From NCBI GenBank assembly GCA_022768465.1, contig JALELZ010000028.1, positions 1 to 64,000 on the forward strand: a DNA stretch of 64,000 nt, given 5' to 3'. The position numbers and the translations under genes are program-made. Each line of letters begins with the position of its first letter. The first letter of the stretch is position 1. The notes under the pieces are model-generated. The model was not told the origin of the DNA. It searched no databases and was given only the letters and a program-made list of their open reading frames with translations. Positions 1,319 to 42,005 of this stretch are shown piece by piece. This stretch comes from Lachnospiraceae bacterium. GTDB lineage: Bacteria > Bacillota > Clostridia > Lachnospirales > Lachnospiraceae.

Positions 1319-2353
1319 ATGATCAGATTAAATAATGACTACAATAAAGGTGCGCATCCTTCTATCATAGAGGCATTGGCCGCACATAATGATGAAAGCT
1401 ATGCAGGATACGGCCTTGATGAGTTGAGCGAAAAGGCTGCGGCAGAAATCAAAAAATATCTCGGAAGAGATGATGCAGATATACATTTTCTTGTGGGCGG
1501 AACACAGACCAACTATACAGTTATAGCGTCTGCTCTAAGACCTTATGAAAGCGTACTGAGTGCTGACAGCGGACACATCAATGTCCATGAGACCGGAGCT
1601 GTAGAGCATATAGGCCATAAGGTTGAGGCTCTTAAAAATAAGGACGGAAAAATAACTGCTGCACAGATAAGAGAGGCAGCAGAGACTTTTAAGACAAGCA
1701 CTGTCCCTGAGCATATTACAGAGCCCAAGATGGTTTATATTTCATTCCCTACCGAATACGGAGCTGTTTACAGAAAGGATGAGCTTGAGGATATAAGCAG
1801 AGTTTGCAGAGAATACGGGCTCTATCTTTTTATTGACGGGGCAAGACTCGGATACGGACTTGCTGCTGAGGGAGGAAATGTTACACTTAAGGATATTGCA
1901 AGGCTCGCAGATGTATTCTATATAGGCGGAACAAAGTGCGGAGCTATGTTCGGAGAAGCAGTTGTTATTTGCAATGATGAGCTCAAGAAGCATTTCAGAA
2001 GCAGCATAAAGCAGAACGGCGGCATGCTTGCAAAGGGATGGCTTACAGGGCTTCAGTTCTATACCTTATTTAAGGACGGACTCTATTTTGAAATAACTAA
2101 AAAGGCTGTTCAGCAGGCTATGCAGATAAAGCATGCTTTTGCTGACGCAGGAATACCTTCATATATTTCAAGCCCGACGAATCAGCAGTTTGTTCTTCTT
2201 ACAAACGAGCAGATGGAGAAGCTTTCTGAAAAATACATTTATGAATTTGAGTTCAGATCCGGAATAGATTATGCCTGCGTTAGATTCTGCACAAGCTGGG
2301 CAACAAAGGACGAGGAGATAGATGAGCTTGTTGCTGATATTCTTGCTCTTTAA
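1319..2353 (+). CDS. ltaE: Low-specificity threonine aldolase family PLP enzyme
   Basis: This is a fold-type I pyridoxal-phosphate enzyme of 344 residues, the usual length for threonine aldolases, which cleave L-threonine or allo-threonine to glycine and acetaldehyde. Visible landmarks are the N-terminal LNNDYNKGAHP, the GGTQTN cofactor-phosphate region near residue 60, FIDGARLGYG with the ring-binding Asp near 173, and YIGGTKCG, whose Lys near 206 should be the Schiff-base lysine. It follows the HAD gene by 12 bases. Related beta-eliminating lyases share the fold, so the exact substrate is inferred. It could supply glycine from threonine. Confidence 0.82.
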   Translation: MIRLNNDYNKGAHPSIIEALAAHNDESYAGYGLDELSEKAAAEIKKYLGRDDADIHFLVGGTQTNYTVIASALRPYESVLSADSGHINVHETGAVEHIGHKVEALKNKDGKITAAQIREAAETFKTSTVPEHITEPKMVYISFPTEYGAVYRKDELEDISRVCREYGLYLFIDGARLGYGLAAEGGNVTLKDIARLADVFYIGGTKCGAMFGEAVVICNDELKKHFRSSIKQNGGMLAKGWLTGLQFYTLFKDGLYFEITKKAVQQAMQIKHAFADAGIPSYISSPTNQQFVLLTNEQMEKLSEKYIYEFEFRSGIDYACVRFCTSWATKDEEIDELVADILAL

Positions 2354-2377
2354 TAAAAATATGTAAAACTGACCAAA

Positions 2378-2408
2378 TTGTAAATATACAATCAAAACTG
2401 ATTGACAA
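2378..2408 (+). promoter_or_regulatory. Candidate BirA operator upstream of bioY
   Basis: TTGTAAAT (2378-2385) and ATTGACAA (2401-2408) form an imperfect inverted repeat with a 15-base spacer. This matches the recalled BirA layout TTGTAAAC-N15-GTTTACAA in half-site sequence and spacing. The right half overlaps the -35 element of the bioY promoter, so binding would block transcription. A BirA with its helix-turn-helix is encoded next to bioY. Confidence 0.6.
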
Positions 2409-2429
2409 TACTGTAAATAAGTATATAAT
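2402..2429 (+). promoter_or_regulatory. bioY promoter
   Basis: A perfect TTGACA (2402-2407) lies 16 bases before a perfect TATAAT (2424-2429). The -35 is embedded in the candidate BirA half-site. Confidence 0.7.
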
Positions 2430-2487
2430 CGAGGATGTCCGTATTGGAATATCAAGCGGATAAATGAAGATTTTTAAGGAGCAGTAT

Positions 2488-3102
2488 ATGTCAGAAACTG
2501 TTAATGCAGCTGCAGCAAATATGCAGAATAAAGAAATAAACAAAAAAGGCTTAGCCATACTCGATATGTGCTATATAGCTATATTTGCAGCAATAATAGC
2601 TGTGCTTGCGCAGATATCAGTACCTATGGTAAGCGGTGTTCCTGTAACGCTGCAGACTCTTGCTGTTGCGCTTGCGGGAATCGTGCTCGGAGGAAAAAGA
2701 GGAGCACTTGCAGCAATTGTTTACCTGATATTGGGAGCAGTAGGACTGCCTGTATTTGCAGGACTTAAGGGCGGCATAGGCGTTCTCTTCGGAATGACCG
2801 GAGGCTTTATAATATCATTCCCGCTTTTGGCCTTTGCAGCAGGAACAGCCGCTGATGCCGCAGCAGGAAAGGATACAAAGGCAAAGGTGGTTATTGTTGC
2901 AGCAGGCCTTGCAATAGGAGCCGTGCTTAATTATGCAGTCGGAACAGTATGGTTTGCTGCTGTTTCCGGAAGCAGCATAGCAACGGGAATAGCTGCATGC
3001 GTTGCACCGTTTGTTGTTAATGACATCATTAAGTTTATTTTAGCTTACTGGTTAGGTATGATACTTAAGAAGGCGCTTATCAAGGCAGGTCTTTTGAAAT
3101 AA
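2488..3102 (+). CDS. bioY: Biotin transporter substrate-binding (S) component BioY
   Basis: BioY is the membrane S-component of an energy-coupling-factor transporter that takes up biotin. The protein has 204 residues and about six hydrophobic segments, with family motifs VPVTLQTLAVALAG, GAVGLPVFAG and GGIGVLFGMTGGF. The start at 2488 is preferred over an in-frame ATG at 2464, because AAGGAG lies six bases before 2488 and the mature sequence then starts MSETVN. No EcfA/EcfT genes are nearby, so it probably shares an ECF module encoded elsewhere. The BirA-type operator predicts repression when biotin is plentiful. The biotin ligase gene follows. Confidence 0.92.
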   Translation: MSETVNAAAANMQNKEINKKGLAILDMCYIAIFAAIIAVLAQISVPMVSGVPVTLQTLAVALAGIVLGGKRGALAAIVYLILGAVGLPVFAGLKGGIGVLFGMTGGFIISFPLLAFAAGTAADAAAGKDTKAKVVIVAAGLAIGAVLNYAVGTVWFAAVSGSSIATGIAACVAPFVVNDIIKFILAYWLGMILKKALIKAGLLK

Positions 3103-7337: not shown

Positions 7338-8123
7338 ATGCAAAAATCTAAGATTAAGGCCTGCATATTTGACCTTGACGGAACACTTTTAGATACACTT
7401 ACTTCTCTTTGGTACTGTGCCAATCGTTCCCTTAAAAGAGAAGGGCTTATGGAGCTTCCTAAGGAGAAGTTCAGATACTATGTCGGAGACGGAGCACTGA
7501 CTCAGGTTGAAAGATACCTTAAGGATACAAAAGTAGTCGGCTTTGAAAATGACTCTGATGCTGCCAAAGAAGACCTGGAAGGAAGCATTAATAAAGCCGG
7601 CACGAATGAAAACTGTGCAAAGGGAAGGATCGGAGCCTTCGGCATACCGGATCCTCATGACCAGGATAATTTAAGCTATTATTTTGACAGCTATATGAGA
7701 GAGCTTAATGTTTATGCCGATTATGATGTAAGACCGTATGACGGAATACCTGATGTGCTTAAAGCAATGAAAAAAGCAGGACTTAAGATCGCTGTTTTTT
7801 CAAATAAGCCTGATGATGCTGCGCAAAAGGTGATATATAAGCATTTCGGGGACTGCTTTGACATAGTTCTTGGCAAAAGGGACGGAAATCCCAAAAAACC
7901 TGATCCTGCAGGGGCACTTATGATAGCTGAGTACTTTGGCATTGATCCTTGTAACATCATGTACATGGGAGATACGGATACTGATATGCAGACAGGGAAA
8001 AATGCAGGCATGTTTACTGTAGGTGTGCTTTGGGGCTTCAGAGAAAGAGAAGAGCTGGAAAGAAATCATGCCGATGCAATCGCAAAGAGACCGTTGGAGC
8101 TTCTTAATTTTATAGAGCAATAA
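7338..8123 (+). CDS. HAD-superfamily hydrolase, phosphoglycolate phosphatase-like
   Basis: This 261-residue HAD phosphatase has motif I CIFDLDGTLLDT, motif II VFSNKP, a motif III lysine in KKPDP and motif IV MGDTDTDM. The cap domain carries an extra polar stretch of about 30 residues (roughly 60-95, rich in Asp, Asn and Lys) relative to a typical 220-residue enzyme. The start at 7338 is chosen over an in-frame ATG at 7326, because GGAG at 7328-7331 sits six bases before it. It follows trkH by 27 bases and may be cotranscribed. The substrate is not identifiable. Confidence 0.83.
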   Translation: MQKSKIKACIFDLDGTLLDTLTSLWYCANRSLKREGLMELPKEKFRYYVGDGALTQVERYLKDTKVVGFENDSDAAKEDLEGSINKAGTNENCAKGRIGAFGIPDPHDQDNLSYYFDSYMRELNVYADYDVRPYDGIPDVLKAMKKAGLKIAVFSNKPDDAAQKVIYKHFGDCFDIVLGKRDGNPKKPDPAGALMIAEYFGIDPCNIMYMGDTDTDMQTGKNAGMFTVGVLWGFREREELERNHADAIAKRPLELLNFIEQ

Positions 8124-8223
8124 GAAAAATATATATCATTGTTATAATATTTTTAAAAATAAATAACTATAAGTTATATAAAACACTTATTTACATAAAA
8201 AATGCCGAAAATCGGAATAACAG

Positions 8224-8251
8224 TTGTAATTTCAAAAAAGATAGCTATAAT
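8224..8251 (+). promoter_or_regulatory. Promoter of the ilv operon
   Basis: TTGTAA is followed after 16 bases by a perfect TATAAT. The predicted start near 8258 places the leader peptide about 30 bases into the transcript. Confidence 0.6.
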
Positions 8252-8290
8252 AAAGAAAAAATATATTTACATTTCAAACAGGAGAGCGAT

Positions 8291-8398
8291 GTGAACTTTT
8301 CACTTATCAACAACAGCATAGTCATTATTAGCATTATTAGCCTCGTCGTGATTATTAAAACTGAGCTTAATAATGTTTTTGGTTATGCGCAGAGTTGA
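8291..8398 (+). CDS. ilv leader peptide (35 codons)
   Basis: A short reading frame starts with GTG, six bases after a clear AGGAG at 8280-8284, and ends with TGA. Fifteen of its 35 codons are Ile, Val or Leu. Codons 10-22 read IVIISIISLVVII, 11 of 13 being branched-chain, and all three isoleucine codons (ATA, ATC, ATT) occur. It lies between the ilv promoter and an intrinsic terminator upstream of acetolactate synthase. This is the architecture of transcription attenuation by ribosome stalling, as in the enterobacterial ilv leaders. It is too short to be found by length-based gene calling. Confidence 0.85.
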   Translation: MNFSLINNSIVIISIISLVVIIKTELNNVFGYAQS

Positions 8399-8450
8399 TA
8401 CCTTCCGAAGGTAGATATTAAAGTTATCATAGTAGATGTAATCTAAGCTC
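8363..8450 (+). promoter_or_regulatory. Predicted antiterminator pairing of the ilv attenuator
   Basis: GAGCTTA at 8363-8369, inside leader codons 25-27, is exactly complementary to TAAGCTC at 8444-8450, which includes the first bases of the terminator stem. A ribosome stalled at the upstream Ile/Val/Leu codons would leave 8363-8369 free to pair. A ribosome reaching the stop codon would mask it. A small hairpin, TACCT/AGGTA (about 8399-8413), lies just after the stop. Confidence 0.6.
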
Positions 8451-8475
8451 GTGACCAACACTCACGGGCTTTTTC
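8446..8475 (+). terminator. ilv attenuator terminator
   Basis: AGCTCGTGA (8446-8454) pairs with TCACGGGCT (8462-8470) around a 7-nt loop, with one G-T wobble, and is followed by five T. It lies about 100 bases before the first structural gene, so it must be conditional. Confidence 0.82.
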
Positions 8476-8573
8476 TATTATCACAACGAAATATAAGTTA
8501 AATAAGCAGAACGGGTCCGGCTGAGAGGGCAGCAGGATAAAGCATCAGAAGTTTAGTGTAGAGGGGGGTTAAT

Positions 8574-10208
8574 ATGCCAAGTATGACAGGCTCACAGATT
8601 CTTATACAGAGTCTTATCAATGAAGGTGTAGATCAGGTATTCGGTTATGCCGGTGCTACTATCTGCTCGCTTATGGATGAAATGAAGCAGGCATCTGACA
8701 GGATCAATTATACATTGGTTCGTCAGGAGCAGAATGCGGGACATATGGCATCGGGTTATGCAAGAGTTACCGGAAAAACCGGAGTTTGTACTGTTACAAG
8801 CGGTCCCGGTGCAACTAATCTTATTACAGGTATTGCAACGGCATATATGGACTCCATTCCTATGGTGGCAATCACAGGACAGGTTCCGTCACATCTGCTC
8901 GGAAGAGATATTTTCCAGGAGGTAGATATCATCGGTGCCGTTACACCGTTTATAAAGCACAGCTATCTTGTTAAAAATGCTGCCGAGCTTCCGAAGATTA
9001 TTAAGGATGCGTTCTATATTGCTTCCACCGGAAGACCGGGACCTGTACTTATAGATTTTCCGCAGAATATACAGTCGCAGGTTGTAAATGATCCGGTATT
9101 TCCTGAGCAGGTTCGAATCAGAGGCTACAATCCGAGTATCAAGGGCAACAGCAAGCAGCTTAATCATGTAATTAAGGCTATAGAGGGAGCAAAGAAGCCT
9201 ATTATATGTGCCGGCGGAGGTGTATTCTTAGCTCATGCCGAGAAGGAGCTTTATGACTTTGCACATACAATGAATATTCCGGTAGTTACCACTATGATGG
9301 GACTCTCACTGCTTGACACCGACGATCCTCTCAATATGGGAATGATAGGACGCTTCGGAAACCGTTCGGCAAATAAGGCTATGGTTAAATCTGATCTTAT
9401 GATAATGATAGGCATGAGAGTTGCAGACAGAGCAATCATGGAGCCTGATGAGGTTAAAAAGAGAATGATGACCATCCATATCGATGTTGACTCCGCAGAG
9501 ATAGGCAAAAATATGGAGGCAAACATTCCTCTTGTAGGAAATGCTAAGATCATACTGGAGGAGCTTAAGGAACGCTGCAAGCCTCTTGATACTGAAGAAT
9601 GGAGAGAGTTCCTTAAGGATTACAGAACAGAAGAGCTTACCAGAGATTTTCCTGAACATCCCGGAGTTTCACCGCAGAGATTCATGCGTGCTCTCGGCAG
9701 ACAGCTTGATGATAATGCAGTAGTTTGTGCCGATGTAGGACAAAACCAGATATGGGCGTGTCAGCACCTTTACATGCACGGCATAAGGTTCCTTACCTCA
9801 GGCGGACTCGGAACCATGGGCTATTCACTTCCGGCTGCCATAGGTGTACAGACTGTACAGCCTGAGCGTCAGACGGTAGTCATTAACGGAGACGGCTCCT
9901 TCCAGATGAGCATGAATGAGCTGGCAGCGGTAAGAGCCGGAAAGCTCAATGTCAAAATAGTAATAATCAGAAACCATGTGCTCGGTCTGGTGCATCAGAG
10001 TCAGGTGCTCCCTCCGTTCCACGGAGCTTACGGAGTCGACCTTGACGGAGATCCGGACTTCCATACATTGGTATCTGCTTACGGAATACCGAGCATGGAG
10101 CTTTCGGATGAAAATGAAATGGAATCAGCTATAAAAGAATTCCTCGGAACAAAGGGCTCATGTGTACTTATGGTAAACGTTGATCCTATGTGCTCTACTA
10201 CAGAATAA
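8574..10208 (+). CDS. ilvB: Acetolactate synthase large subunit, first copy (AHAS I-like)
   Basis: This ThDP-, FAD- and Mg-dependent enzyme condenses two pyruvates to acetolactate or pyruvate with 2-oxobutyrate to acetohydroxybutyrate. The 544 residues contain the catalytic glutamate of VRQEQNAGHMASGYAR (about Glu52), SGPGATNL, GRDIFQEVDI, GRPGPVLIDFP and the ThDP motif GDGSFQMSMNEL. The segment after it reads LGLVHQSQ, whereas the second copy has LGMVRQWQ. The tryptophan at this position favours 2-oxobutyrate in AHAS II-type enzymes, and E. coli AHAS I also lacks it, so this copy may favour pyruvate (inference). AGAGGGGGG just upstream supports the start. Its small subunit follows after 10 bases. 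Confidence 0.9.
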   Translation: MPSMTGSQILIQSLINEGVDQVFGYAGATICSLMDEMKQASDRINYTLVRQEQNAGHMASGYARVTGKTGVCTVTSGPGATNLITGIATAYMDSIPMVAITGQVPSHLLGRDIFQEVDIIGAVTPFIKHSYLVKNAAELPKIIKDAFYIASTGRPGPVLIDFPQNIQSQVVNDPVFPEQVRIRGYNPSIKGNSKQLNHVIKAIEGAKKPIICAGGGVFLAHAEKELYDFAHTMNIPVVTTMMGLSLLDTDDPLNMGMIGRFGNRSANKAMVKSDLMIMIGMRVADRAIMEPDEVKKRMMTIHIDVDSAEIGKNMEANIPLVGNAKIILEELKERCKPLDTEEWREFLKDYRTEELTRDFPEHPGVSPQRFMRALGRQLDDNAVVCADVGQNQIWACQHLYMHGIRFLTSGGLGTMGYSLPAAIGVQTVQPERQTVVINGDGSFQMSMNELAAVRAGKLNVKIVIIRNHVLGLVHQSQVLPPFHGAYGVDLDGDPDFHTLVSAYGIPSMELSDENEMESAIKEFLGTKGSCVLMVNVDPMCSTTE

Positions 10209-10218
10209 GGAGGGGGAA

Positions 10219-10704
10219 ATGAAACAGACGATATCCGTACTGGTTGAAAACCAGGCAGGCGTACTTAATAAAATAACAAGCCTCTTCTCAAAGAGAGCCT
10301 TTAATATTGACTCACTTGCTGTAGGAGTTACAGATGATCCTACATTATCGCGAATTACCATTATAGTCGACAGCGGAAACAGTGTTGTTGAGCAGGTTGA
10401 GAAACAACTCAATAAGCTGGTGGATGTAGTCAAGGTCAGAACCTTAAGTGAGCATGCGATGATCGGAAGAGAACTGCTGCTCATAAAGGTCAGTGCAACC
10501 ACATCGACAAGACCTGACATTATGACAATGTGTCAGATATGCGGGGCAAAGGTCGTTGATATAACACCAAGCACGGTGACAATGGAGATAGCTAACACTC
10601 CGGAAATAGTAACATCCTTTGAAGAAATGATGAGACCGTACGGGATAATGGAGACTGCACGCACCGGAATGATAGCACTTCAAAAAGGGGCAAACAAAAT
10701 ATAA
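10219..10704 (+). CDS. ilvN: Acetolactate synthase small (regulatory) subunit, first copy
   Basis: A 161-residue ACT-domain protein that binds valine and activates the catalytic subunit. The N-terminal ACT domain is ISVLVENQAGVLNKIT..FSKRAFNIDSLAVG, and a C-terminal AHAS small-subunit domain ends TARTGMIALQKG. The length is that of the two-domain IlvH class, not the roughly 95-residue E. coli IlvN, even though its partner resembles AHAS I. The start at 10219 is chosen because AAGGAGGGGG directly precedes it. An in-frame upstream ATG at 10180 would overlap the preceding gene without a ribosome-binding site. Confidence 0.92.
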   Translation: MKQTISVLVENQAGVLNKITSLFSKRAFNIDSLAVGVTDDPTLSRITIIVDSGNSVVEQVEKQLNKLVDVVKVRTLSEHAMIGRELLLIKVSATTSTRPDIMTMCQICGAKVVDITPSTVTMEIANTPEIVTSFEEMMRPYGIMETARTGMIALQKGANKI

Positions 10705-10725
10705 AAACAAACAGAGGGTATTGAT

Positions 10726-12444
10726 TTGAAGGTAACAGCAACTAAGGCAATAATGGAATGTCTTCTTGAGCAGGATGTCGATACAGTGTTCGGATATCCC
10801 GGAGGCACGATACTAAATGTCTACGATGAATTATACAGATATAAGGATAAGATAAATCATATACTTACAGCACATGAGCAGGGGGCGGCACATGCGGCTG
10901 ACGGCTATGCAAGAGCAACCGGAAAGGTCGGAGTATGCTTTGCAACCTCAGGACCGGGAGCGACCAATCTTACCACAGGAATTGCCACGGCATACCTTGA
11001 TTCTTCTCCGGTAGTATTCATTACCTGCAATGTCGGAGAGACGCTTTTAGGTAAGGATGCATTTCAGGAGGTAGATATCACCGGAATAGCAATGCCTATA
11101 ACAAAGGCAACATTTCTTGTAAGAGAGGCAAGCCAGATACCGGATGTTATGAGACAGGCATTTGCAATAGCAGCCTGCGGAAGACCGGGACCTGTGCTCA
11201 TAGACTTCCTTAAGAATGTGACCAATCCTGATCAGCTGGTAGATTATGAGTTTATTCCGTATAAGGAAAATCGCAGCTGTGAGGCTATTAAAAAGCTCAA
11301 TTTCTCACATGATCTTTCATCACCTGAGGTCAATCAGGAGGATGTAGACAAGCTTGTTGAGATGATATCTGAATCAGAGAGACCATTTATAGTTTGCGGC
11401 GGCGGTGTAGTAAGAGGAAGAGCACATAAGGAATTCAGAGAATTTGCCGAGAAGCTGGATGCACCGGTTGCCATAACGGTTATGGGAGGCGGCGGCTTCC
11501 CCGGAGATCATGAACTGACTTCCGGTATGATAGGAATGCATGGATCAACGGCTTCAAACACTGCCTGCAGCAAATGTGATCTGCTTATAGCGGTAGGATG
11601 CAGATTCTCAGACAGAGTTGCCTTAAATCCTAATACCTTTGCAGCTCAGGCAAAGATAGTGCAGATAGATATCGACAGAGCAGAAATTGATAAAAATGTT
11701 CTGACAGACCACCACATAATAGGCTCTGCTAAAAAGGTGCTTGAAATGCTTGATGCAAAGCTTCCGCAGTATCATCATCCGGAATGGAAGAAGGAGATAC
11801 TTCCGCTCAGAGAACCGTCTGAGGCACCCGATCTCGGAAGATTCACTCCGCAGCAGATAATGGAGACTATAAGAGTCAATGCACCGAAGGATACTATAGT
11901 TGCAACAGACGTCGGACAGCATCAGATGTGGGCTATAAAATACCTGCACTTTGAATATCCCGGCCAGCTTCTTACAAGCGGAGGCTTCGGTACAATGGGC
12001 TTCGGACTCGGAGCGGCAATAGGTGCCTCTCTTGGCTGCCCTGATAAAAGAGTCATTCATATCACCGGAGACGGCTGCTTCAGAATGAACTGCAATGAAC
12101 TTGCCACGGTAGAGCATTACGGTCTTCCTATAATAACTGTAATATTTAATAACGGAACACTCGGAATGGTACGTCAGTGGCAGAACCTTATATACGGAAA
12201 GCGATTCTCAGAGACCACTCTTGACAGAGGGCCTGATTTCGTAAAGCTTGCAGAGGCCTACGGATTAAACGGAAGAAGAGTCAATAATGTTGAGGATATG
12301 AAAAATGTACTTGAGGAAGCTCTTAAAGCAGACAAAGCCACAGTCATAGACTGCAGACTTGATATCAATGAGCTTGTGAGCCCAATGGTTGCAGCCGGAC
12401 ATGATATTACAGATTTCCTGTTAAATGAAGGAGGCCGTGCCTGA
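10726..12444 (+). CDS. ilvB: Acetolactate synthase large subunit, second copy
   Basis: A second 572-residue AHAS catalytic subunit, of the classical biosynthetic type. It shows the catalytic Glu in AHEQGAAHAADGYAR (about Glu51), SGPGATNLTTGIATAY, GKDAFQEVDI, GRPGPVLIDF, the ThDP motif GDGCFRMNCNEL followed by FNNGTLGMVRQWQ, and LNEGGRA at the end. The tryptophan of RQWQ is retained, unlike in the first copy, so it should handle 2-oxobutyrate for isoleucine synthesis. The start is a TTG codon preceded by AGAGGG with 7-base spacing. No ATG with an acceptable site precedes the conserved N-terminus. Its small subunit overlaps its 3' end. Confidence 0.93.
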   Translation: MKVTATKAIMECLLEQDVDTVFGYPGGTILNVYDELYRYKDKINHILTAHEQGAAHAADGYARATGKVGVCFATSGPGATNLTTGIATAYLDSSPVVFITCNVGETLLGKDAFQEVDITGIAMPITKATFLVREASQIPDVMRQAFAIAACGRPGPVLIDFLKNVTNPDQLVDYEFIPYKENRSCEAIKKLNFSHDLSSPEVNQEDVDKLVEMISESERPFIVCGGGVVRGRAHKEFREFAEKLDAPVAITVMGGGGFPGDHELTSGMIGMHGSTASNTACSKCDLLIAVGCRFSDRVALNPNTFAAQAKIVQIDIDRAEIDKNVLTDHHIIGSAKKVLEMLDAKLPQYHHPEWKKEILPLREPSEAPDLGRFTPQQIMETIRVNAPKDTIVATDVGQHQMWAIKYLHFEYPGQLLTSGGFGTMGFGLGAAIGASLGCPDKRVIHITGDGCFRMNCNELATVEHYGLPIITVIFNNGTLGMVRQWQNLIYGKRFSETTLDRGPDFVKLAEAYGLNGRRVNNVEDMKNVLEEALKADKATVIDCRLDINELVSPMVAAGHDITDFLLNEGGRA

Positions 12445-13010
12445 TGAGAAGAGTATTTAATTCAGAAAAGAAAATATATACCTTGGCTATTCTTGTTGAG
12501 GACGTGCCGGGAATCCTGAGTCAGGTTGCAAGATTATTCTCAAGAAAGGGCTACAATATAGAGTCTATAGTTTCCGGAGAAACAGACAGACCGGGAATTA
12601 CAAGGATCTCCATAGAGGTTATTGCCGATGAACTGATGATAGATCAGATAGCGGCACAGTGCAGAAAGCTTATAGGCGTGAAATATGTCAAGATACTTGA
12701 TGAGGATACAAGCATCCGAAGAGAGATTGCATTTATCAAGTTAGGAGTTACTGATAAGGCATCAAGAGACGAGGTTATTCAGCTTGTTAATATTTTCAAG
12801 GCAAAGGTAATAGATGTTGATCTTGAAGCCATTACCATATGGGTATTCGGAGATAAGGAAAAGAATGAAGCTCTTATAAAGCTTCTCGGGGAATTCGGAA
12901 TACTCGAAATTGCAAAAACAGGTACTATCGCCATCGAGAGAGGGCGCAGCACAATATACGATGACAACAAGTTACAGGAGGAATTTAACTATGGCAAAAA
13001 TGTATTATGA
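12444..13010 (+). CDS. ilvN: Acetolactate synthase small subunit, second copy
   Basis: A 188-residue two-domain regulatory subunit with an N-terminal ACT domain ([40 protein letters not shown]) and a C-terminal domain ending [17 protein letters not shown]. The ATG overlaps the stop of the catalytic gene in an ATGA arrangement, with GGAGG in the preceding codons, giving translational coupling. About 25 residues after the conserved end (RSTIYDDNK onward) run into the ilvC ribosome-binding site and start, so the two genes overlap by 20 bases. Presumably it pairs with the adjacent second catalytic subunit. Confidence 0.92.
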
Positions 13011-14010
13011 AAAGGACTGTGATATAACCAAAATCTATGGAAGAAAAATCGCAGTAATCGGTTACGGTTCACAGGGACATGCACATGCCCTCAATCTTAA
13101 GGATTCAGGCTGTGATGTATGTGTCGGCCTTCGTGAGGGATCTAAGAACTGGAAGGCAGCAGAGGACGCAGGACTTACAGTTAAGACTGTTGCAGAGGCA
13201 GCAAAGTGGGGAGACATCATCATGATCCTTATCAATGATGAGGTTCAGGCAAAGGTTTATAAGTCAGAGATCGCACCTAATCTTGAGGCAGGCAACGCAC
13301 TTATGTTTGCGCATGGCTTCAACATTCATTTCAAGCAGATCGTTCCTCCGGCAGATGTTGATGTTATCATGATCGCACCTAAGGGACCGGGACACACTGT
13401 TCGTTCACAGTATGTAAACGGAAAGGGCGTTCCTATGCTTATCTGTGTTGAGCAGAATGCTACAGGAAAGGCTTATGATATCGGTCTTGCTTATGCAGCA
13501 GGTATCGGCGGAGCAAGAGCAGGTGTTATGGAGACAACCTTCCAGGCTGAGACAGTGACAGATCTTTTCGGAGAGCAGACAGTTCTCTGCGGCGGTATCG
13601 TTCAGCTTATGAAGCTTGCATTCGAGACACTTGTAGAGGCAGGCTATGCTCCTGAAAATGCTTATTTTGAGACTATCCATGAGATGAAGCTCATAGTTGA
13701 CCTTATCAACAAGGGCGGAATCGCTATGATGAACTATTCTATTTCAGACACAGCAGAGTATGGTGAGTATGTATCAGGTCCTCGTATACTTCCTGAGAAG
13801 GAGACCAAGGAAAGAATGAAGGCGGTTCTTCAGGATATCCAGGACGGAACATTTGCAGGAAAGTGGATCGCAGAGAATAACAACGGACGTACATACTTCA
13901 ACAGAAGCCGTGCTATCCTTGCTCAGCATCCTATGGAAACTGTAGGTGCAGAGCTTCGTAAGAACATGCTCTGGGGCGATGATGTAGATCCTGATACAGC
14001 ATCAAACTAA
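12991..14010 (+). CDS. ilvC: Ketol-acid reductoisomerase
   Basis: IlvC isomerises and reduces acetolactate or acetohydroxybutyrate to dihydroxy acids using NAD(P)H. At 339 residues it is a short class I enzyme. The Rossmann segment reads [19 protein letters not shown], with the specificity loop [33 protein letters not shown] and the knotted C-terminal domain with [13 protein letters not shown] follow. The start at 12991 directly follows CAGGAGG (seven-base spacing). An in-frame ATG at 12910 would lie inside ilvN without a ribosome site. From here codon choice shifts toward that of highly expressed genes (ATC, GTT, CTT). Confidence 0.96.
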
Positions 14011-14040
14011 TCAGTATAGTATAATTATCACAGATTCTTA

Positions 14041-14100
14041 TTCCGGCATCACCGGAAACCTCGTATATCCGTGTCACAGCGGATATACGAATTTGTAATT
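14041..14100 (+). terminator. Double hairpin between ilvC and ilvD
   Basis: TTCCGG/CCGGAA at 14041-14056 is followed by an 11-bp perfect stem, 14061-14071 with 14080-14090 (8-nt loop), then a T-rich but interrupted stretch. It may be a partial terminator or a processing/stability element that sets ilvD expression below that of ilvC. No second leader peptide is visible in this 141-base spacer. Confidence 0.45.
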
Positions 14101-14151
14101 TTCAAGCAGAAAACTGCATTTATATTTAATGAAATAATAAGGGGAGAGAAA

Positions 14152-15813
14152 ATGAGAAGCGATGTTATAAAAAAAGGCGTGCCTGCGGCACCTAACCGCT
14201 CACTGCTGTATGCGTTAGGCTACACCAAGGAGGAAATAGAAAGACCGCTTATCGGAGTTGTATGCTCTTATAATGAAATAGTTCCTGGTCATATGAATCT
14301 TGATAAGATTGCAGAGGCTGTAAAGGCAGGGATAAGAGCTGCAGGAGGAACTCCTGTGGAATTCCCGGCAATCGCTGTCTGCGACGGTATTGCAATGGGA
14401 CACACAGGCATGAAGTATTCGCTTGTTACAAGAGATCTTATAGCTGATTCTACAGAGGCTATGGTTATGGCACACCAGTTTGACGGTCTTGTAATGATCC
14501 CTAACTGTGATAAGAACGTGCCGGGTCTTCTTATGGCAGCAGCCAGAGTCAACATCCCGACTATTTTCGTATCCGGCGGACCTATGCTTGCGGGCACGCT
14601 TAATGACGGAAGACGTACATGCTTAAGCCATATGTTTGAGGCTGTAGGTGCTCACTATGCGGGAAAACTGGATGATGCCGGACTCGAGGAATACGAGCAG
14701 AATGCATGTCCAACCTGTGGCTCCTGCTCCGGAATGTACACTGCAAACTCAATGAACTGCCTTACAGAGGCTATAGGCATGGGACTAAAAGGCAACGGAA
14801 CTATTCCTGCTGTCTATTCAGCAAGATTAAGACTTGCCAAGCATGCAGGAATGCAGATCATGGAGCTTGTGGCTAAAAATATCTGTCCACGCGACATTAT
14901 GACTCCGGCAGCCTTCCACAATGCCGAAACCGTAGATATGGCACTCGGCTGTTCAACCAATACTATGCTCCACCTTCCGGCAATAGCACATGAGTGCGGC
15001 CTTGATTTAAGCTTTGATATGGCAAATGAGATATCAGAAAAGACACCGAATCTCTGCCACCTTGCACCTGCAGGATTTACCTATATGGAGGATCTTGAAA
15101 GAGCAGGAGGTGTATATGCTGTCATGAAGGAGCTTGCAGATGCGGGACTTCTTGATACCTCTGTAATGACCTGCACAGGCAATACTATGGGAGAAAATAT
15201 AAAGGATGCTGTAAATCGTGATCCTGAAATCATCAGACCGGTAGATGATCCTTTCACTAAGACTGGCGGAATCGCAGTACTTAAGGGTAATCTTGCACCT
15301 GACGGCTGTGTTGTTAAGCAGTCTGCTGTTGCACCTGAAATGATGGTGCATGAAGGTCCTGCAAGAGTATTTAATTCAGAAGATGATGCAATAGCTGCTA
15401 TATATGACGGCAAGATCACAGCCGGAGACATTGTCATCATCCGTTATGAGGGACCTAAGGGCGGTCCGGGAATGAGAGAAATGCTCAATCCTACCTCAGC
15501 AATTGCCGGCATGGGACTTGATAAGTCAGTAGCACTCATTACAGACGGACGCTTTTCCGGAGCTACAAGAGGTGCTTCTATAGGCCATGTTTCACCTGAG
15601 GCTGCGTCAGGCGGCCCTATAGGACTTGTTGAAGAGGGCGATATCATTGCCATCAATATTCCTGAGCATTCTATCGAGCTTAAAGTAAGTGATGAAGAGC
15701 TTACAAACAGAAAGGAAAAGTGGGTATGCCCGGAGCCTCGCATCAAGACAGGTTATCTTGCACGCTATGCAAAGTATGTTTCATCTGCAGATAAGGGAGC
15801 GATATTAAGCTGA
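14152..15813 (+). CDS. ilvD: Dihydroxy-acid dehydratase
   Basis: IlvD dehydrates the dihydroxy acids made by IlvC into 2-oxoisovalerate and 2-oxo-3-methylvalerate and needs an iron-sulfur cluster. The 553-residue protein has the cluster cysteines in PNCDKNVPG and [19 protein letters not shown], plus [16 protein letters not shown] and [11 protein letters not shown] near the C-terminus. The start at 14152 is selected because AAGGGGAG lies just upstream and the sequence then reads MRSDVIKKG, the family N-terminus. An in-frame ATG at 14071 lies within the hairpin region. The next gene overlaps the stop codon by one base. Confidence 0.96.
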
Positions 15814-17129
15814 TGTATAAATTGATTTCCAGACTGCTGCTCTTTGGTGAGCTGGGCGCAGACAGTATACTTCGCAATGTTGCCAATATTATTCGTGATT
15901 CGGAGTCGGAAAATGCTGACAAGGATGAGCTTGTGCAGCGATCATTTAGAGAGGTGAAGCATATCCTTGATCTTTCTACAGACTGCGGCTTTGATGAGGA
16001 TCTATGGCAATGCTATCTTACATACATACTCATGACAAATGAAAACTCTTTTACAAAGACCTGTGAGAGGGTGGGAAGCAGAGACGGCTCAGTCAATTAT
16101 TTCGCTGTAAAGGATTTTGAAATATTCAAAGAGCTGATGCACTATGATTTTTCGGCACTTGAAGAGAGGCTTGGCATTGATTGCTTTACAAAGATCTGTT
16201 CATATAAGGCCATTCCTAAGAGAGACAGACTTTATAATCACGATATCAGCACTCAGGTAAGAGGGCTCAGAGACAAGCTTTGCAAGGCTGAGAGCGGACA
16301 GAAAATATTTGATATTGTCACAGATTATTATGCTAAATACGGCTACGGACTGTTTGCTATGAGCAGAGCTTTTCGTATTAACCGCAGTGAAGGCGGCAGG
16401 CTTGATTTCCTGCCTATAAGTAATGTTGATAATGTGATGCTCAGCGATCTTCTTGGCTATGAGGAGCAGAAAAAAGAGCTTAGAGATAACACTCTTGCCT
16501 TCTTAAATGGCAAAAAGGCCAATAATGTTCTGCTTTACGGAGATGCCGGCACAGGTAAATCCACAAGTGTCAAGGCTCTTATCAATGAGTATTATGATAT
16601 GGGTCTGCGCATGATAGAAATCTACAAGCATCAGTTTGGAGATCTTTCAGAGGTGATCGGCAGCATAAAGAACAGAAATTATCGATTTATTATTTTTATC
16701 GATGATCTGTCATTTGAGGAAAATGAAGTCGAATATAAATTCCTTAAGGCGGTGATCGAAGGCGGAGTTGAGACACGCCCTGAGAATGTGCTTATTTATG
16801 CAACTTCAAACCGCAGGCATCTTGTAAAGGAGACCTGGAAGGACAGAAATGATATGGAGCACGAGGGAGATATTCATCGTTCCGATACGATAGAGGAAAA
16901 GACCTCGCTTGCTGCACGCTTCGGAGTTTCTATCAATTATAATGCACCTACACCAAAGCAGTATCACGAGATCGTCAAAGCTCTTGCTGAAAGAAACGGC
17001 CTTAAGATAGATGAGGCAAAGCTTAAGACTATCGCAAACAGCTGGGAGATCCGCCACGGAGGCTTCTCCGGAAGAGCGGCACAGCAGCTGGTGCAGTATC
17101 TTGAAAGCAAGCAGGATAGCGAGCCATAA
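15813..17129 (+). CDS. DUF815-family AAA+ ATPase
   Basis: A 438-residue ATPase of the DUF815 (COG2607-like) family, whose cellular role is not established. The N-terminal 180 residues are a family-specific helical region. The AAA core follows, with Walker A LLYGDAGTGKST (about residues 240-252), Walker B FIIFIDDLSFE, sensor 1 YATSNRRHL, a short insertion rich in charged residues, and the arginine-bearing segment SLAARFGVSI. It overlaps the ilvD stop by one base (TGATG) and so is translationally coupled to the ilv operon. Family members are usually not linked to amino acid synthesis, so the link may only reflect position. Confidence 0.88.
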   Translation: MYKLISRLLLFGELGADSILRNVANIIRDSESENADKDELVQRSFREVKHILDLSTDCGFDEDLWQCYLTYILMTNENSFTKTCERVGSRDGSVNYFAVKDFEIFKELMHYDFSALEERLGIDCFTKICSYKAIPKRDRLYNHDISTQVRGLRDKLCKAESGQKIFDIVTDYYAKYGYGLFAMSRAFRINRSEGGRLDFLPISNVDNVMLSDLLGYEEQKKELRDNTLAFLNGKKANNVLLYGDAGTGKSTSVKALINEYYDMGLRMIEIYKHQFGDLSEVIGSIKNRNYRFIIFIDDLSFEENEVEYKFLKAVIEGGVETRPENVLIYATSNRRHLVKETWKDRNDMEHEGDIHRSDTIEEKTSLAARFGVSINYNAPTPKQYHEIVKALAERNGLKIDEAKLKTIANSWEIRHGGFSGRAAQQLVQYLESKQDSEP

Positions 17130-41759: not shown

Positions 41760-42005
41760 CTGTGGCATGATAGCGTTGATTCGTAAGGTTGCTGCGGAAC
41801 GCAAAAACATAAGCGTCTGCAGGTTTTTACGGGGAGCGAATGTCAAGACAAATCGTTGGCGACAAGTCACTGTACCAAATTTAGGCTCCGGCATAAGACC
41901 GGAAAGCGGGGTGCATGTTGTAAGATATGCGACACACCCGACAACGTGTACAGTCACCACTTGTCGTACTAAGTCAAAAAGTACGAATAGGAGGCGACTT
42001 TTTTT
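41760..42005 (+). promoter_or_regulatory. Structured leader of the S10 operon
   Basis: A long-range stem joins CGACAAGT + ACTGTAC (41860-41875) with GTACAGT + ACTTGTCG (41948-41966), 15 bp in two blocks. It encloses a CCGG/CCGG hairpin and a GGGTG/CACCC pairing. Next to it, TCGTAC/GTACGA (41964-41969 with 41981-41986) competes with the outer stem, and AAGTC/GACTT (41971-41975 with 41996-42000) would enclose the AGGAGG of rpsJ. This is the form expected of an autogenous ribosomal-protein control element, but I do not recognise the family. Confidence 0.5.

Follow-up and report, generated by a model that had tools for sequence, protein, structure and literature searches.

Which mechanism controls the tandem-AHAS operon of this Lachnospiraceae bacterium? 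The window analysed here, a stretch of 64,000 nucleotides, carries an ilv operon for two AHAS enzymes, preceded by a short frame rich in codons for branched-chain amino acids (BCAAs), from which an earlier note had proposed a peptide-leader attenuator. The operon it described is real, as NCBIfam matches give the order ilvBN-ilvBH-ilvC-ilvD, and the two large subunits ilvB1 and ilvB2 are about 40% identical.

8574..15813, + strand: operon ilvB1-ilvN-ilvB2-ilvH-ilvC-ilvD, two AHAS enzymes (NCBIfam)
8574-10208, + strand: ilvB (ilvB1)
about 10216-10704, + strand: ilvN
10726-12444, + strand: ilvB (ilvB2)
12444-13010, + strand: ilvH
about 12982-14010, + strand: ilvC
about 14146-15813, + strand: ilvD

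As expected of an attenuator, the cognate biosynthetic operon lies immediately 3' of the leader. Directly 3' of ilvD, a gene for an AAA-type ATPase (15813-17126; weak NCBIfam matches only) possibly belongs to the same operon. A match to the AHAS large subunit (ilvB2 query, E<=1e-100) occurs in 11 of 25 genomes of the genus, the window's included; the other genomes may be BCAA auxotrophs or incomplete. Elsewhere in the window, positions 41768-41865 hold an S10-Clostridia ribosomal protein leader (RF03136, 69.7 bits), in line with a clostridial origin of the DNA.

The leader frame and its upstream signals are the following.

8224..8251, + strand: promoter-like TTGTAA-16-TATAAT, 10/12 matches
8280..8284, + strand: Shine-Dalgarno-like AGGAG of the leader
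8291..8398, + strand: leader ORF MNFSLINNSIVIISIISLVVIIKTELNNVFGYAQS, 35 codons, 15 of them Ile, Val or Leu

The frame runs from a putative GTG start (8291) to a TGA stop (8396-8398) and contains 8 Ile, 4 Val and 3 Leu among its 35 codons; start, length, BCAA content and the upstream AGGAG are all as the earlier note had read them. An ORF combining an SD-like site with at least 10 Ile, Leu or Val among 12 residues arose in one of 5000 dinucleotide shuffles of 8124-8573, and on both strands of the 64 kb window the leader is the sole ORF of this kind. The promoter-like pattern is weak when taken alone (4 sites against 3.9 expected). The sequence thus appears to provide a frame with its own ribosome-binding site, rich in codons of the very amino acids under regulation. 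The peptide has no NCBIfam or Pfam match. Between the terminator described below and the start of ilvB, the segment 8508-8571 is G-rich, with a small predicted hairpin and no Rfam match. A TPP- or ykkC-like remnant, as its appearance might suggest, was rejected, given the missing Rfam match and a fold of 8480-8590 not above shuffles (z 0.41).

Homology and covariance-model searches yielded 17 relatives of this leader, or 18 members including the window. The covariance models of the in-frame hairpin, R1, R2 and R3, were built from 4, 7 and 12 sequences, respectively. The large model searches scored the best 11-23 candidates per genome, so that member counts are lower bounds. Among the 24 other genomes of the genus, the leader precedes the orthologous ilvB1 at L083 and L084 (84 and 80% identical) and an ilvB2-type gene in two more, L093 and L094 (64-65%). 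Outside the genus, an Oscillospiraceae bacterium (L002) carries it before ilvB1 (66% identical). In the family of that genome, at least 14 of 400 genomes match R2 (E<=0.01), and 7 matches were judged real: L002's genome itself, L193, L197 and L198 with the leader before ilvB1 (66-69%), L199 and L205 with the leader before an ilvB2-type gene (67-68%), and L200 with the leader before leuA, above the NCBIfam leuA_bact cut-off. The other 7 were rejected as His-repeat coding sequence. Across the class, at least 19 of 391 genomes match R3 (E<=0.02), 7 judged real and 12 not. The real matches are the window, L207, L211 and L215 (before ilvB), L206 and L209 (before a LeuA-related gene with Pfam HMGL-like and LeuA_dimer domains, in L206 below the NCBIfam leuA cut-offs), and L210. 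In L210, a single frame after the leader (1649-3073) is HMGL-like (14-139) and then AMP-binding (250-475), domains not usually seen together in a gene that a BCAA leader controls.

In the window's own family, R3 matches at least 15 of 200 genomes, real only in the window as far as inspected. An earlier model search gave matches at E<=0.5 in 74 of 250 own-family genomes, and a search of 33 genomes gave a match at E<=1 in 17, the best of which were inspected. When 30 loci from the search of 250 own-family genomes were compared by tblastn with the six ilv proteins, leuA not being a query, only the window's own passed; leaders in this family could be missed, because 30 loci were tested and leuA was not among the queries. 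Upstream of 29 own-family loci (L097-L125) no ORF reaches 9 of 12 Ile, Leu or Val; the looser threshold of 7 of 12 returns one ORF each at L098, L110 and L114. Against 54 loci with ilvB-like genes and no known leader, R3 gave one match, at E 0.76. The false model matches that were discarded are mostly antisense His/Asp-rich repeats, with a few other hydrophobic stretches. Such repeats (antisense GTCATCATC; L194, L195, L196, L201, L202, L204 and others) are systematic false positives for models of Ile-codon-rich leaders.

All 18 members share a BCAA-rich frame (30-49% Ile, Leu or Val), and in 17 of them an ilvB- or leuA-related gene follows: ilvB-type in 14, leuA in L200 and LeuA-related in L206 and L209, with the HMGL-like/AMP-binding frame in L210. 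Leu runs are present in all four leaders that precede leuA or an HMGL-like gene (LL, LLL, LL plus LLL, and LLLL), and 10 of the 14 ilvB leaders lack any, LL occurring in L002, L197, L199 and L205; this is as expected if the codons set specificity. In 12 members the end of the stop codon lies 2-17 nt beyond the hairpin, in five (L083, L002, L193, L197, L199) 32-53 nt beyond it, and in L205 before the hairpin end. L199 translates the RNA of segment 2, the 3' side of the hairpin, in a different frame, and L205 has this RNA at the stop codon and downstream of it; in both it is conserved nonetheless. Judged from these sequences, it is the RNA and not the peptide that is kept in the family.

The conserved hairpin, which we term the protector, pairs segment 1 with segment 2 (1:2) and was absent from the earlier note's description.

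8315..8323, + strand: segment 1 outer arm AGCATAGTC, of which 8316-8323 forms helix 1 with 8381-8388
8332..8338, + strand: segment 1 inner arm CATTATT, within Ile codons; pairs with 8369-8375 (helix 2)
8369..8388, + strand: segment 2, AATAATG...GGTTATGC, protector hairpin 3' side, with 8379-8387 doubling as antiterminator 5' side
8445..8474, + strand: intrinsic terminator, stem 8445-8454/8462-8471, T run 8470-8474
8450..8458, + strand: segment 3 CGTGACCAA, 5' arm plus loop of the terminator; antiterminator partner of 8379-8387

The 18 members were fitted to R3 (alignment A7), alignment by model fitting being used since MAFFT had misaligned L093, L094 or L084. The inner helix is paired in 100% of cells across all 18 members, and 2 of its 7 pairs have changed on both sides (A-U 12, G-C 4, C-G 2; U-A 14, C-G 3, U-G 1), while the outer helix is paired in only 72.9% of cells. 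Over the whole hairpin, both-sided changes affect 19 cells, the shuffles giving 7.7 (0/500 as high), and the covariation score is 0.332 against at most 0.105 with the partners slid. Two of the five covariation measures are not exceptional, namely how many pairs show both-sided changes (6 vs 4.1; 26/500 shuffles as high) and how many further pair types occur (19 vs 17.8; 176/500 as high). Both the count of relatives and the 1:2 pairing counts lean towards this hairpin because the search models reward it: 13 of the 17 relatives (L193, L197-L200, L205-L207, L209-L211, L215) were found with such models, 12 of the 18 members built R3, and later members were found with R3. The five relatives found through ilvB do not count among these by score. 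The alignment of homologous leaders called for by the earlier note gives a BCAA-rich frame in every member and 1:2 pairing with compensatory changes. The family comparison thus shows a protector hairpin, which a stalled ribosome would break.

A strong terminator is found 34-94 nt 3' of the hairpin in all 18 members. The pattern in the window is not significant when taken alone (1 found vs 0.8 expected in shuffles); across the family, the sequences point to an intrinsic terminator between leader and first gene. Its 5' arm and loop (segment 3) are the predicted partner of segment 2 in an antiterminator (2:3), with the window's core formed by TTGGTTATG (8379-8387) and CGTGACCAA (8450-8458). Pairing of the hairpin's 3' part with the terminator 5' arm and loop was scored in each member with no fitted alignment. 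Own pairs have a mean energy of -17.4 kcal/mol and mismatched pairs one of -11.9 kcal/mol in the 18 members, and 0 of 20,000 permutations are as strong, with either the 18 members or 11 representatives of divergent groups. Against dinucleotide-shuffled segment 2, p < 0.05 is reached in 11 of 18 members, and z over all members combined comes to -10.3 when their relatedness is ignored. The pairing is marginal in L197, L210, L211 and L215 (p 0.053-0.071 vs shuffles) and not above shuffles in L084, L198 and L207 (p 0.18-0.22). The window's own pairing exceeds shuffles only modestly (z -1.9, p 0.044); set against mismatched partners, it comes 3rd of 18 by row and 6th by column. The corresponding cores are TGCTTGTG with CGTGAGCA in L084, AAAAGTCA with TGACTTTT in L200 and GCTTATTGC with GCGATAAGC in L211. 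Thus, these calculations support an antiterminator mutually exclusive with the terminator, L084, L198 and L207 being the members not above shuffles.

Folding of each expected state adds to this model. When only the RNA left free by a ribosome stalled on the Ile codons is folded, up to the end of the terminator loop, a mean of 13.4 2:3 pairs is expected, with at least 9.9 in 16 of the 18 members and no 2:3 pairing in L198 and L207. The free leader folds 1:2 with a mean of 15.5 pairs. Once the whole terminator is included, it dominates even with a stalled ribosome (mean probability 0.96, lowest 0.57 in L084) and reaches a mean of 0.98 with the leader free. Because the terminator wins at equilibrium, the choice of the switch must be kinetic, and in our model antitermination is assumed to have such a kinetic window. 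We therefore propose the following course of events. Under scarcity of charged tRNA-Ile (and Val/Leu), the ribosome would stall on the Ile/Val codons at 8318-8356, segment 1 would be unable to pair, and segment 2, now free, would capture segment 3 before the terminator 3' arm is made, allowing read-through into ilvB. With plentiful BCAAs, the ribosome would reach the stop codon at 8396 and cover segment 2, whereupon the terminator would form; in the absence of translation, the 1:2 hairpin would also favour the terminator. In the members with a nearby stop codon, the terminating ribosome would likewise cover segment 2. In those with a distant one (L083, L002, L193, L197, L199), segment 2 would be left uncovered and 1:2 re-forming behind the ribosome would act instead. 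Taken together, the sequences make it very probable that the leader in the window is a classical three-way ribosome-mediated transcription attenuator, and the ribosome-mediated attenuation put forward in the earlier note is well supported by the 17 relatives.

The antiterminator suggested in that note was a different one. It rested on GAGCTTA at 8363-8369, which is indeed exactly complementary to TAAGCTC at 8444-8450, overlapping the terminator 5' arm (stem from 8445). In the window these seven bases pair at -10.3 kcal/mol against -4.5 in shuffles (0/500 as strong), statistically a stronger result against shuffles than that of 8379-8387/8450-8458, and the pairing could be the main antiterminator, perhaps as a peculiarity of the species. 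It is not kept in the relatives: only L207 of the other 17 members beats shuffles (p 0.03), the counterparts have longest perfect runs of 3-5 bases, and the combined z is -0.3 with the window included. In addition, 8363-8369 shares one base (8369) with the 3' arm of the conserved inner hairpin, and the pairing cannot nest with 8379-8387/8450-8458, the one that is conserved. The idea that a completed leader would mask 8363-8369 does not hold either. A ribosome at the stop codon 8396-8398 covers roughly 8381-8411, given its usual footprint, and would thus mask the 8379-8387 segment instead. As main antiterminator the 8363-8369 pairing is improbable; it may be a help peculiar to the window's species and not a conserved element.

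Two further readings place the function in the peptide. That the frame encodes a functional small membrane protein would agree with its hydrophobic core and with weak matches of two relatives to small-membrane-protein models (E 0.019 and 0.026, far below cut-offs); this is very unlikely, as the RNA element is kept where the frame ends before the end of segment 2 (L205) or reads it out of frame (L199), and 17 of 18 frames are followed by a terminator and then by an ilvB- or leuA-related gene. Nascent-peptide arrest by a C-terminal N-S-A-x-G-H/Y-A motif, in place of codon starvation, has an equally slight chance of being the sensor. Forms of the motif recur in many members, but L199 and L205 have lost it or carry it in another frame, and L211/L215 have a changed version, although the RNA pairing persists; the density of BCAA codons is the more general feature. 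Since the motif varies while the pairing stays, constraint on the RNA would explain its recurrence. Finally, control by a T-box, a CodY site or a ppGpp-type riboswitch might be expected, as a T-box precedes the orthologous ilvB1 in 6 of 9 relatives' loci. At the window's locus there is no Rfam family match at the gathering threshold and no credible one at E<=10, and no match was found at the leaders of 16 relatives (L002's own locus lay outside the scans). The earlier note had seen no T-box, and the Rfam model RF00230 bears this out: none reaches the gathering threshold in the 64 kb window and none is among the matches at E<=10 in 8100-8620, while elsewhere in the window's genome the model finds three places at E<=0.001, one of them above the cut-off. 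A search for CodY (PF06018) gave no match in any of 25 genus genomes, the window's being 95.98% complete, and a control search of 14 genomes detected it in B. subtilis and L. lactis. Control of this operon by any of the three is extremely unlikely. Attenuation by the ribosome stalled in the leader frame remains the reading preferred for this operon.

The T-boxes in the relatives bear on the history of the leader. Nine loci (L003-L011) were scanned, and six have a T-box just upstream of the orthologous ilvB1.

L004 4433-4663: T-box directly 5' of the ilvB1 orthologue
L006 3509-3753: T-box, same position
L007 2663-2890: T-box, same position
L008 4821-5049: T-box, same position
L009 5686-5918: T-box, same position
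L010 3690-3929: T-box, same position

The other three (L003, L005, L011) show neither T-box nor leader at the thresholds used. A tree of 21 ilvB1 proteins places the genus, on a long branch (0.51), together with L193 and L197, both leader-bearing (99/98 support), and requires two changes for the leader and two for the T-box. The tree is based on a small sampling with several weak forks, a midpoint root and three partial rows; its topology is compatible with transfer of gene plus leader and with repeated exchange of the regulator. We lean slightly towards the view that these BCAA attenuators, which share a conserved hairpin within the frame, make up a Clostridia-wide family so far uncatalogued, that leaders and T-boxes have taken each other's place on the ilvB1 lineage more than once, and that the genus acquired leader and AHAS gene together, by transfer from a donor resembling Oscillospiraceae.

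The mechanism as such has well-known counterparts. According to parts of two papers (PMC5794164; PMC6123439), attenuation of BCAA operons by leader peptides is an established mechanism in E. coli, has experimental support in S. aureus and L. monocytogenes and is predicted in Lactococcus and Streptococcus. The earlier note had called such a leader proteobacterial-style and Firmicute branched-chain operons more often controlled by T-boxes or CodY; as these cases show, leader control is not alien to Firmicutes. Like the enterobacterial ilvGMEDA attenuator, the window's leader combines a terminator before the operon with stalled-ribosome logic, and its 35 codons with 15 BCAAs resemble ilvL, given in an excerpt of PMC6123439 as 32 codons with 15. 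In sequence there is no recognisable relation: ilvGMEDA scores 6.9 bits with R3 (E 0.38, 421 bases), whereas the 18 members, including the 12 from which R3 was built, reach 29-78 bits. The S. aureus ilvD and L. monocytogenes ilv leaders likewise place a BCAA-rich leader peptide before a Firmicute BCAA operon (PMC5794164 and PMC6123439, in part), but act together with CodY, for which no match was found in the window's genus. BCAA-rich uORFs before ilvB are described in a section of PMC1262725 for Actinobacteria and in one of PMC10272879 for Corynebacterium and the ilvB-OMG motif; in Corynebacterium ilvBNC (ilvB-II) and ilvB-OMG, attenuation is proposed or shown, as stated in the latter section. 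The window and the leaders of 16 relatives have no Rfam match to ilvB-II, ilvB-OMG or the ppGpp riboswitch, the presence of these models in the Rfam copy being unconfirmed. The Veillonella ilvD motif (WRC-18-2), compared by description, is also a Firmicute RNA before a BCAA gene, sometimes with a terminator, yet the portion of PMC8632094 that covers it presents a weak riboswitch candidate without leader frame. The T-box leader (RF00230) does the same job on orthologous ilvB1 in other Clostridia, but it senses uncharged tRNA directly, needs no leader peptide and is absent at the window's locus. A comparative study of attenuation in bacteria (Mol Biol 2010, 44:128), cited in a passage of PMC4833913, may bear on these leaders as well. 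Among open-licence papers, none was found that deals with a clostridial ilv leader, whether from Lachnospiraceae, Oscillospiraceae or other families. The mechanism is thus ordinary and already known, and the Clostridia leader family, judging by its sequences, is apparently uncatalogued.

In summary, our analysis suggests that a translation-coupled switch, familiar mainly from proteobacteria, can govern BCAA genes in Clostridia without a detected CodY, and that within one gene lineage this leader switch and the T-box can stand in for each other. A model recognising the leader would allow annotation of leader-controlled ilv and leu operons across Clostridia. The pairs of leader and T-box on orthologous genes provide natural material to study why one amino acid sensor replaces another.
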